Assembly: GCA_017301975.1 (NCBI GenBank) | Contig: JAFLEI010000022.1 | Span: 1 to 64,000, forward strand | Length of the DNA stretch: 64,000 nucleotides | Direction: 5' to 3' | Source: Verrucomicrobiota bacterium | GTDB taxonomy: Bacteria > Verrucomicrobiota > Verrucomicrobiia > Verrucomicrobiales > Verrucomicrobiaceae | Shown here: piece by piece, positions 17,149 through 57,503 of the stretch | How the letters are laid out: each line of letters opens with the position of its first letter | Numbering within the stretch: position 1 is the stretch's first letter | Made by a program: the position numbers and the translations under genes | The notes under the pieces: generated by a model | Seen by the model: the letters and a program-made list of their open reading frames with translations, nothing else | What the model was told of the DNA's origin: nothing | The model's database searches: none

Positions 17149-17339
17149 GCGGTGGCGTGCAGCTTCCCGCGGGGGGGGGGGCGTCCTGGTCCCCGTTTGG
17201 GAAAAGTGCTGGGTGAACGCGGAGCACCGGGTGCGGCGGAGGACGTGGCGCTGGGTAACGTGGAACGGAGTGCGTGCGCGGAGCGTGAGGGGCCAGGATG
17301 GTCCTACTAGTGCCCAACCACCCAGCGCCTCTGGCAGGA

Positions 17340-17381
17340 GAGGGATCATCCTGATCCCTCAACGCTCCGCGTTCACCCAGC
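17340..17381. repeat. Hairpin module A plus 19-base flank
   Basis: GAGGGATCA-TCC-TGATCCCTC (17340-17360) is a perfect 9-bp hairpin. It is followed by the flanking module CGCTCCGCGTTCACCCAGC (17363-17381). The same hairpin with its flank recurs at 33602-33645 with a few substitutions, and the flank alone recurs in reverse complement at 20832-20850 and, one base shorter, at 17208-17225. Confidence 0.85.
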
Positions 17382-20363: not shown

Positions 20364-20927
20364 CCACCGCTGATGCCCCCGCAGAAGCAAGCCCCACCGG
20401 AAGAGGAAGGACAGGCCACCCGTTGAAAAGGTCCCAGGCCCCCATGGCCTGCAGGCGTTCTTGAAGCCGGGTGGATGGCAAGGAGCGGGATCATCCTGGC
20501 CGGGTCGCGGAGCGCGAGGCTCGCTTGGCAAGGAGGTCAGGCCTCCGGCCTGACTGTGGACAGAGGCTTCCAGCCTTTCAGGGTTTGGGCGATGGCGTTA
20601 GCGCTGGGTGGGAAGCCAAAGGCGGGACGCCTCGATCCGCTGACAGGCGGGGACGCCTGTCCTCCGGGGGGGGATGCGGGCGCTGGGTGGTTTGGAAGGA
20701 GTGGGACCATCTTGGTCCCTCACGCTCCGCTCGCGTCCTCCGTCCCGCGCTGGCAAGGCGCGGCTTGCTTCTTCGCGCACGCATCTGCCTTCGCCGGTTC
20801 ATGGACGATCGCGCCCTGGGGTCGGAAGAGCGCTGGGTGAACGCGGAGCGCTGTGGGACCAGGATGGTCCCACTCCTGCTTGGAGGCGCTGGCACGTTTA
20901 TCATGCCGGAGGCGCTGCGTGGTCCCA
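20364..20927. repeat. Gene-free mosaic of hairpin repeats (second block)
   Basis: Perfect hairpins include GTCAGGCC-TCC-GGCCTGAC (20536-20554), GACAGGCG-GGGA-CGCCTGTC (20642-20661), GGGACCA-TCT-TGGTCCC (20703-20719) and TGTGGGACCA-type 20853-20873 (GTGGGACCA-GGA-TGGTCCCAC). A decayed member is at about 20487. The 19-base flank GCTGGGTGAACGCGGAGCG is at 20832-20850. The first 100 bases (20364-20470) hold nothing recognisable. Open frames here are mosaic and do not resemble genes. Confidence 0.75.
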
Positions 20928-31935: not shown

Positions 31936-31954
31936 CCGCGTGCCGCTGCGTTCC

Positions 31955-33616
31955 ATGTCGCCCTCCCGTCTCAATTTCCAGCTCGATGCCCAGACCAGCG
32001 ACTCCCGTGCCCGCGCCACCACGTTTCACACGCTGCATGGCACCATCCAGTCGCCGCTCTTCATGCCCGTGGGCACACAGGCCACGGTGAAGGCGCAAAC
32101 GCAGGAGTCCCTCCACACCTCCGGCTCACAGATCCTTCTCGCCAACACCTACCACCTCCTGCTGCGTCCCGGCCCCGATGTCTTCACCAAGCTCGGAGGC
32201 ATTCACCGCTTCATGAACTGGCCCGGCTCCGTGCTCACGGACTCCGGCGGTTATCAGATCTTCTCGCTGCCGCACTCGCGCTCCATGACAGAGAAGGGGG
32301 CCGTTTTTCAAAGCTACGTCGATGGCCAGCGCATCCTCCTCAGCCCGGAACTCAGCATTCAAACGCAGCGCGCCATCGGCAGCGACATCATGATGGTGCT
32401 CGACCAGTGCATCCCATCCACCGCCGATGAAAAAACAACTCGCGCCGCCCTGCAGATTACCCAGCGCTGGGCCGTTCGCAGTCTCGCAGCGCGTGAAGAC
32501 TCACCTCAGTCCATGTTTGGCATCGTGCAGGGCGCGCTCTATCCGCATCTCCGTCGCGAGAGCGCCGAGGGCCTGATGCAGATCGACTTTGACGGCTTCG
32601 CCATCGGCGGTCTCGCCGTGGGGGAAGAGAAAAACGAGCGCGAAGACGTGTGCGAACTCACCGCCGCCCTGTTTCCATCTGATCGCCCACGCTACCTCAT
32701 GGGCGTCGGCACGCCGGTGGATGTGCTGGAGGCCGTGCACCGTGGCGTGGACATGTTCGACTGCATCATCCCCACGCAAGTCGCCAAACGCGGCACCGCC
32801 TTCACTTCCCGCGGCATCGTGGAGCTGCGCCGCTCCGTGTACAAATTCAGCGAGGACCGCCTCGATCCCACCTGCACCTGCCCGGTGTGCGCCACACACA
32901 GCCGCGCTTATCTGCACCACCTTACCAAGACGCAGGAGCCGCTGGGCTGGACTCTCGTCGGCCAGCACAACATCCACTTCTACCACCAGCTCATGCGCGA
33001 GATCCGCCAGAGCATCCTCGAAGACCGCTTCCTCCCGCTCTACCGCGAACGCCGCGAGATCCTACAGATCGAAGACGTGGACCATCCCGTCACGCATCCG
33101 AAACGCACCTCCACCAAAGTGCACCACGAAGGCGACTACGAACTCCACGGCCAGCCCCCCGCCATCCTGCACACGACTTCGCTTCGTATCATCCCCACCA
33201 CCCCGCAGCTCGATCCCGCCATCGAGTCCCAGGTCGTCCAACTCCTCCGTCAGCCCGCAGATTCACCGCCGCTCGTCGTCTGGGACACTCATCTCGATGC
33301 CGCCGCCACCGCCATCGCTCTCATTCTCCTCTACGAAGCCGCCAAAGGCCCTCTCCGTCCCCTCCATCTCGTCAGCTTCAGCGCCGATCTCTCCCCGCTG
33401 CGCCTCGCCCTCCATCACAAGCGCCACTTCCCCTACCTCCGCCACGGCGCCGCCGACACCCTTATCCGCCGCGACGCCTGGGAATCCCGCTACTGCCCCG
33501 GCCTCAAGTGGACCCTCATCCACGGCTCACACGCCGACATGCAGGCGCAGGCACCCGCAGCGGATGTTGTCGTGGAAAGTACTCACGAGCTCCCGGCAGG
33601 AGAGGGATCATCCTGA
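31955..33616 (+). CDS. tgt: tRNA-guanine transglycosylase with truncated MnmC-like tail
   Basis: Residues 1-375 are a complete bacterial TGT, which swaps G34 for preQ1 in His, Asp, Asn and Tyr tRNAs. FMPVGTQATVKAQTQ, LTDSGGYQIFSLPH, and the zinc site in DPTCTCPVCATHSRAYLHHL are seen. Residues about 385-540 are a second domain: LVVWDTHLDAAATAIALILLY, LHLVSFSADLSPLRLAL and LKWTLIHGSHADMQ fit the MnmC/DUF752 SAM-methyltransferase fold. It stops just before the expected D-P-F-S acidic motif, at the edge of repeat DNA, and the last 13 residues (ESTHELPAGEGSS) are repeat-derived. I chose ATG 31955 over GTG 31940. Confidence 0.9.
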   Translation: MSPSRLNFQLDAQTSDSRARATTFHTLHGTIQSPLFMPVGTQATVKAQTQESLHTSGSQILLANTYHLLLRPGPDVFTKLGGIHRFMNWPGSVLTDSGGYQIFSLPHSRSMTEKGAVFQSYVDGQRILLSPELSIQTQRAIGSDIMMVLDQCIPSTADEKTTRAALQITQRWAVRSLAAREDSPQSMFGIVQGALYPHLRRESAEGLMQIDFDGFAIGGLAVGEEKNEREDVCELTAALFPSDRPRYLMGVGTPVDVLEAVHRGVDMFDCIIPTQVAKRGTAFTSRGIVELRRSVYKFSEDRLDPTCTCPVCATHSRAYLHHLTKTQEPLGWTLVGQHNIHFYHQLMREIRQSILEDRFLPLYRERREILQIEDVDHPVTHPKRTSTKVHHEGDYELHGQPPAILHTTSLRIIPTTPQLDPAIESQVVQLLRQPADSPPLVVWDTHLDAAATAIALILLYEAAKGPLRPLHLVSFSADLSPLRLALHHKRHFPYLRHGAADTLIRRDAWESRYCPGLKWTLIHGSHADMQAQAPAADVVVESTHELPAGEGSS

Positions 33617-33745
33617 TCCCTCAACGCGCCGCGTTCATCCAGCCCCCCGCGCTACCCAACGCCGAACGTCCCGCCTTACCCAGCGCTTCCAAACTGGGAC
33701 CAAGATGGTCCCCCTCCTGCCAAGCCATCCAGCGCCTCGTGCGCT
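33576..33745. repeat. Repeat block that truncates the tgt tail
   Basis: It starts AAAGTACTCACGAGCTC (33576-33592), the opening of the 47.4-kb element family. Then comes GGCAGGAG, the hairpin GAGGGATCA-TCC-TGATCCCTC (33602-33622), a variant of the 19-base flank, and GGGACCA-AGA-TGGTCCC (33696-33712) followed by CCTCCTGCC. The tgt reading frame ends within it at 33616. Confidence 0.87.
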
Positions 33746-33748
33746 GCC

Positions 33749-34006
33749 TCACTTCGTGACATCAATGTCATGCGTCTTCGGCTCAGCCTTCCCATCCGTC
33801 CCCTTGCGCCGCAAAAAATGCCCGATGTCCACGCCGAAGTAGGCCAGGCAGATAATCAAGAGCGCCGTCGCCGCCGCTTCATCCAGATTGCCAAAAATGG
33901 GGATGTTGTCCGGAATGAATTCCGCCACACCGAATCCGATGTTCAGCAGGTAAAGCGCCGACACAATGCCCGAGCAGAGCACCAGAATATCGCGGATCAG
34001 TTTCAT
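33749..34006 (-). CDS. Small membrane protein, DUF1232-like
   Basis: This 85-residue protein has two membrane helices: residues 7-27 and about 46-62 (AAATALLIICLAYFGVDIG). IPDNIPIFGNLDEAAATALL resembles the DUF1232/YkvA core (D-x-I-P-x-x-I-P-x-x-G-x-L-D). The C-terminus is hydrophilic (RRKGTDGKAEPKTHDIDV). The function is unknown. It converges on tgt across the repeat block. Confidence 0.72.
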   Translation of the reverse strand: MKLIRDILVLCSGIVSALYLLNIGFGVAEFIPDNIPIFGNLDEAAATALLIICLAYFGVDIGHFLRRKGTDGKAEPKTHDIDVTK

Positions 34007-34153
34007 AGAGAAGGGAAGGGGGGCGGAGGCTGGTTTATTGTGTCCGCAGTTCGCTCCTCATGCTAAAACATCCTTGAGCAAATTTTGGAATCGCAGGGCC
34101 GAGCCGAGGTGGTCCTCGGGTTGACGGCTGATTCACCCACCCCACGTTGCCTC

Positions 34154-47417: not shown

Positions 47418-47573
47418 AAAGTACTCGTGAGCTTTAGCTCACTCAGGAAAACCGTACGTATCCCACAGCCCATTCGTCCGCCTTCAGGCCGAATGATTGA
47501 GTGCTTGCCGGTTCGGGACTGCGCTGGGTGCGCGAATGATTCCCAGAGCGAGCTAAAGCTCACGACTACTTTC
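47418..47573. mobile_element. MITE-like element with ~32-bp terminal inverted repeats
   Basis: Left end AAAGTACTCGTGAGCTTTAG... (from 47418) and right end ...CTAAAGCTCACGACTACTTT (to 47573) are near-perfect inverted copies over about 32 bases. Each end contains the palindrome TGAGCT-TT-AGCTCA (47428-47441 on the left). The 156-bp unit has no coding capacity. A third, partial copy is at 57237-57272 and a fragment opens the repeat block at 33576. It fills the gap between fabH and proB. No clear target-site duplication is seen, and no transposase is in the window. Confidence 0.72.
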
Positions 47574-57219: not shown

Positions 57220-57503
57220 AGGGAAGGGGGATGGAAAAAGTACTCCAGAGCTTTAGCTCGTTCTGGAATCGCGAGCCAATGCGTAACCGAACGACGAATG
57301 CAGAACCGAGCAAAGGCAATCAATGACGAATGACCACGCTTCCGCAAATCACTTCATCACTCGGACATCGGAACTGCAACCGCCAGCCCCAAGGTGCCGG
57401 GGTCTCCCGACCTCGCGCCGCTCAGGCAGTGGATTTTGCTTCGCGACAGTGCAATCTGACTCACAGCCCTCCAGACAAGGGTGGGAGACCCCACCTCCTT
57501 GGC
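57220..57503. other. Gap between menA and the PVC heme-protein gene
   Basis: The part next to menA holds a copy of the 47.4-kb element end (57237-57272). Inverted arms GGGGTCTCCC (57399-57408) and GGGAGACCCC (57483-57492) lie 74 bases apart. Nothing else is recognised. Confidence 0.5.
57237..57272. repeat. Partial copy of the 47.4-kb MITE-like end
   Basis: AAAGTACTCCAGAGCTTTAG and the following CTCGTTCTGGAAT match the right terminal arm of the element at 47418-47573 read inward, with about six differences. Only one end is present. Confidence 0.75.

Follow-up and report, generated by a model that had tools for sequence, protein, structure and literature searches.

SAM binding and methyl transfer by Escherichia coli MnmC are described as depending critically on Glu-101 and Asp-178, both of which are conserved in the Aquifex MnmC2 (PMC3648344). 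The MnmC2 reaction, the conversion of nm5s2U to mnm5s2U at U34, is performed in Bacillus by MnmM, and mnmM and mnmC are reported to be mutually exclusive (PMC9976899). No description of a TGT-MnmC2 fusion was found in the literature searched and the arrangement, which is found in several lineages of the Verrucomicrobiota, is apparently undescribed. The gene analysed here lies in a 64,000-nucleotide stretch of Verrucomicrobiota DNA (the window) and is a truncated member of this family. Very probably, the methyltransferase of the fusion was inactivated in a common ancestor of the Prosthecobacter group, where it left a constrained half-Rossmann appendage, and a MITE-like repeat came later and affected the tail only.

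The features of the locus are listed in Table 1. Bacterial TGTs insert preQ1 at G34 of tRNAs that have a GUN anticodon. The window protein scores 438.5 bits against the TIGR00430 equivalog (cut-off 306.75) and its core, matched by PF01702, contains the DSGGYQ motif, the FDC nucleophile region and the CxCxxC zinc motif, and was aligned to the Zymomonas TGT structures. The catalytic Asp (MFDC) and the substrate-pocket motifs DSGG and GGLAVGE are present and are nearly invariant across the family. The TGT core is intact, as the preliminary description of this DNA had held.

Table 1 Features of the fused tgt gene and of the repeat DNA at its 3′ end (window coordinates).
Feature	Position	Strand	Evidence or remarks
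tgt ORF	31940-33616	+	single open frame, GTG start, 558 aa
TGT catalytic core, residues 23-372	32006..33055	+	PF01702, E 1.4e-140
Eroded linker and N-terminal piece of MnmC2-like domain, residues 373-445	33056..33274	+	dN/dS 0.248
Retained half of Rossmann methyltransferase, residues 446-545, beta1 to beta4	33275..33574	+	alignment, AlphaFold, dN/dS
Last 13 codons and stop, ESTHELPAGEGSS*, written by repeat DNA	33575..33616	+	tail varies by subclade
Left terminal inverted repeat (TIR) of 74-76 bp MITE-like hairpin element; right end absent here	33576..33591	+	51 TIR sites
Second dispersed, often tandem repeat	33593..33738	+	~97 BLAST matches in own genome

Beyond the TGT, no Pfam match was found in the window protein and PF05430 was unmatched up to E 10. 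Alignment with its relatives, however, confirmed the earlier proposal that the gene extends past the TGT core into an MnmC-like domain and breaks off ahead of the catalytic motif. The missing motif had been given as D-P-F-S; a catalytic acidic motif is indeed absent, but full-length relatives read D-x-[FWY]-S, mostly D-F-F-S or D-M-F-S. In the linker and N-terminal piece, SGEIMH..PP..EA..LY has been lost, and columns that are invariant in the 46 full-length fusions are gone from the truncated clade. The SAM-binding Glu is replaced in the window protein (Ser481) and the chain stops ahead of the catalytic Asp of D-x-F-S, the final position in common with relatives being approximately residue 545 (base 33574). 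In the AlphaFold model residues 400-545 form a compact half-Rossmann sheet (pLDDT mostly 86-95), with strands at 445-449, 475-481, 522-528 and 543-545. Foldseek searches with both models gave TGT structures alone among the matches listed and did not inform on the C-terminal domain.

Orthologues were gathered from 56 related genomes and by scanning public genomes, and 84 were kept after duplicates and short fragments had been dropped: 46 full-length, 34 truncated and four cut by contig ends. The full-length fusions are approximately 670-710 residues long and keep the whole methyltransferase (n = 46; a few are clipped near the end by contigs). PF05430 was matched by all 22 of the full-length C-terminal domains sampled, and a profile of the full-length domain matched Aquifex MnmC2 (3vyw, E 1.4e-11) as well as the methyltransferase half of the E. 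coli and Yersinia MnmC. With the MnmC2 NCBIfam equivalog the full-length fusions score 59-64 bits, below the cut-off of 136, so they are relatives of MnmC2 whose exact substrate is not assured even where the domain is intact.

In a tree constructed from the TGT core alone, one branch (SH-aLRT 98) splits the 34 truncated proteins from all 46 full-length ones. All the truncated proteins come from the Prosthecobacter group, of which the cultured Brevifollis gellanilyticus (L086) is one member. The chain ends directly after beta-strand 4 in every truncated protein, followed by tails of approximately 5-40 residues which differ by subclade; the basal members L041, L014 and L015 have a common non-repeat tail, HQPLPGM. 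Four residues which are nearly or fully invariant in the full-length proteins, His419, Asn457, Glu481 and Phe531 (window numbering), occur in none of the 34, and Asp530 remains in 6% of them. Glu481 and the D-x-F-S Asp align with E. coli MnmC Glu-101 and Asp-178, respectively; the Asp was found in a single truncated protein (1/34), in an eroded tail where the alignment is doubtful. Trp514, Ser516, Trp524, His502 and Leu489, which are expected to be structural, are kept in all 34, and structural positions are 91-100% conserved in the truncated group. No relic of the catalytic half was detected up to 2.5 kb 3′ of the truncated genes by a search whose control matched 46/46 full-length loci, the best downstream candidate (E 0.008) covering 40 residues on the opposite strand. 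Together these data show that the methyltransferase was lost, with its motifs, in a single ancestral event. Further decay of the half-domain is seen in two members: in L103 it is strongly diverged and short-tailed, and in L060 an internal part around beta-strand 2 has been deleted in frame.

The 3′ end of the window gene lies in repeat DNA from base 33576, as previously noted, and the frame stops approximately 40 bases further on, at a TGA (33614-33616) inside the repeat. The terminal sequence AAAGTACTCNCGAGCT occurs at 51 sites in the genome at ≤1 mismatch, versus none for a reversed-pattern control. In the window the remainder of the MITE-like element is apparently replaced by the second repeat, for which BLAST matches are strongest over the hairpin segments 33593-33647 and 33696-33738. 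The two perfect hairpins of this second repeat, GAGGGATCATCCTGATCCCTC and GGGACCAAGATGGTCCC, lie at 33602-33622 and 33696-33712 with folding energies of -24.6 and -11.9 kcal/mol, respectively; no Rfam family was found at 33300-34100. The second repeat is also present in the window at 17333-17381 and 20679-20719. A MITE-like element lies near the gene end in five of the 34 truncated orthologues (the window, L032, L033, L034 and L040), and complete copies, AAAGTACTC..AGTACTTT, of 76 bp occupy the position seen in the window in L032 and L034, and one of 74 bp lies close by in L040. Elsewhere in the window there is a longer MITE-like element of 155 bp, with ends AAAGTACTC..ACTACTTT, at 47418-47572, and an additional MITE-like left end at 57237.

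The preliminary description attributed the truncation to this insertion, which would have cut an intact TGT-MnmC2 fusion in the window genome. The position of the element, which starts 2 bases past the last conserved codon and supplies the DNA in which the frame stops, speaks for such an event, but 29 of the 34 truncated orthologues lack the repeat and yet end approximately 5-40 residues from the same strand. The comparison with orthologues which had been proposed as a check was run: the near neighbours L035, L036, L008 and L009 are truncated without the repeat, and L035, which is close to the window in the core tree, has the identical end point. The catalytic and SAM residues are moreover gone clade-wide, including some that lie far ahead of the break, and the catalytic half is absent from up to 2.5 kb downstream of the truncated genes; a cut made by the repeat in this genome is highly improbable. 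As the repeat is present in the window and four close relatives only, and not in L035, it is later than the truncation and has rewritten only the last residues. The analysis shows that the repeat arrived late, and a mobile repeat that lies exactly at a break need not have caused it. A related explanation, that a mobile repeat, since erased, truncated the gene in the ancestor of the clade, is unlikely, even though the 3′ flank of the fused gene is repeat-rich and fast-changing in several genomes: the basal members L041, L014, L015 and L020 contain no trace of the known MITE-like element, and in the first three the tail is not repeat-derived. The original loss event is unseen; the ancestral frame could have been ended by a deletion, or by a repeat that inserted earlier.

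What the retained half-domain does can be approached from its rate of change. In simple pairwise counts over non-independent pairs of eight close relatives, dN/dS was 0.059 for the core (95% bootstrap 0.042-0.082) and 0.159 for the half-domain (95% 0.104-0.228), the latter approximately 2.7-fold above the former, with the linker higher still (Table 1); the values for full-length pairs were 0.031, 0.050 and 0.053 for core, linker and methyltransferase half-domain, respectively. The half-domain of the truncated proteins thus lies above both the core and its full-length counterpart and far below 1, so that constraint on it is relaxed yet strong. That constraint has been retained is shown by these values, and the remnant is best explained as a structural appendage; we infer that it packs against or stabilises the TGT or helps to hold the tRNA. 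The half-domain might instead be a roleless, decaying remnant with residual constraint, in a gene being trimmed toward the TGT core. The elevated ratios of half-domain and linker would fit such decay, as would the internal stretch gone in frame from L060 and the failure to find the fused gene in three fairly complete genomes of the same genus (G004, G009 and G021). The frame, however, is open through strand 4 with the invariant Trp and Ser positions in all 34 truncated genes sampled, and the upper bound of the dN/dS interval is far under 1; we consider decay a serious alternative, somewhat less probable than not.

Under the preferred reading, inactivation in the ancestor followed by retention of a structural appendage, a second TGT paralogue and an MnmC2-type tRNA-wobble methyltransferase would have fused to give the ancestral gene. 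In the common ancestor of the Prosthecobacter group the methyltransferase would then have lost its SAM-binding and catalytic residues, and the chain would have come to end after beta-strand 4; the non-catalytic half Rossmann fold would have stayed as an appendage of a TGT that is intact in other respects, with purifying selection still acting on it. The MITE-like repeat would have inserted afterwards, in a small subclade, altering the stop and the final residues and nothing else. The gene would then be a phylogenetically placed fused enzyme in which the second activity has gone but selection still acts on half of the fold, a tractable case of a pseudo-enzyme domain.

An intact MnmC2 elsewhere in the window genome, which the preliminary description had suggested looking for, was searched for and none was found. 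The sole PF05430 match in the genome (C12, 22.2 bits, at the cut-off) was rejected as an MnmC2 since it falls within a 532-residue ORF whose sequence suggests a membrane protein carrying a spermidine-synthase-like domain. The truncated relatives likewise contained no intact PF05430 enzyme at full score. MnmM, on the other hand, is encoded in the window genome (E 8.5e-42) and in nearly all genomes of the same genus, and MnmE was found throughout the genomes searched. Whether MnmM had simply displaced the fused domain was considered: MnmM is present in 1/59 genomes with an intact MnmC-type protein versus 45/230 others (Fisher p 2e-4), which suggested a simple exchange, but 24 of the 46 genomes with the full-length fusion have MnmM too, which weakens this reading. 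Coexistence was seen in 17/18 Opitutae-like (L063-L104), 7/11 Verrucomicrobiales-like and 0/17 Chthoniobacter/Spartobacteria-like genomes. Because MnmM coexists with intact fusions it does not by itself drive the loss, and its role may be at most permissive; we infer that MnmM, which almost all of these genomes encode, made loss of the methyltransferase tolerable. The occurrence of an MnmC2 relative and MnmM in one genome departs from the reported mutual exclusion (PMC9976899).

A free-standing TGT accompanies the fused gene in almost every genome, and the two paralogues differ in the anticodon-reader loop (window 32750-32795), which is TQVAKRG in the window protein versus TRxxRNG. The fused copies have TQVAKRG, TQVAQRG, SQLAQRG, NKVAQFG (Opitutae) or similar and the free-standing copies [TS]RxxR[NH]G; the first Arg of TRxxRNG is missing from all fused copies examined. 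By alignment, the arginines of TRxxRNG correspond to Arg286 and Arg289 of Zymomonas, which presumably read the anticodon loop of the tRNA. The altered loop may reflect a changed tRNA specificity or a division of labour, and the comparison points to a second TGT in the Verrucomicrobiota whose tRNA-reading loop is altered. In most of these Verrucomicrobiota the CxCxxC zinc motif is missing from the free-standing TGT (G000:C79:146048-147145 (L178), L179-L181, L215-L226 and L229) and present in the fused paralogue. A more extended proposal, which we hold only tentatively and rate as doubtful, is that the fused proteins constitute a distinct second TGT family of the Verrucomicrobiota, that the paralogues divide the work and that the Prosthecobacter TGT still needs its non-catalytic half-Rossmann module. 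With work divided in this way, the paralogues may act on different tRNAs or form a heterodimer, and the methyltransferase may act on a wobble base made by the partner.

Compared with known systems, the element at the gene end resembles MITEs and REP-like hairpin elements in being short (74-76 bp), with inverted terminal repeats and approximately 50 terminal sites in the genome; it differs in that the window copy retains the left end alone. MnmM (YtqB, PF06962) catalyses the same reaction as MnmC2 and is encoded in the window genome, but is an unrelated, free-standing protein of another family. The full-length relatives match most of the MnmC2 domain (Aquifex 3vyw; methyltransferase half of E. 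coli MnmC) and have its conserved Glu and D-x-F-S motifs, but are fused behind a TGT, where MnmC2 stands alone or before an FAD oxidase; the window copy further differs from MnmC2/MnmC(m) (DUF752, PF05430) in lacking the second half and any PF05430 match. With the bacterial queuine tRNA-ribosyltransferase TGT (TIGR00430/PF01702) the window protein shares an entire core, alignable to the Zymomonas and Thermotoga TGT structures, together with the catalytic Asp and the CxCxxC zinc motif. Unlike that enzyme, it is a second paralogue next to a free-standing TGT, it has a C-terminal extension, and its family carries the loop TQVAKRG or NKVAQFG in place of the TRxxRNG of ordinary TGTs.
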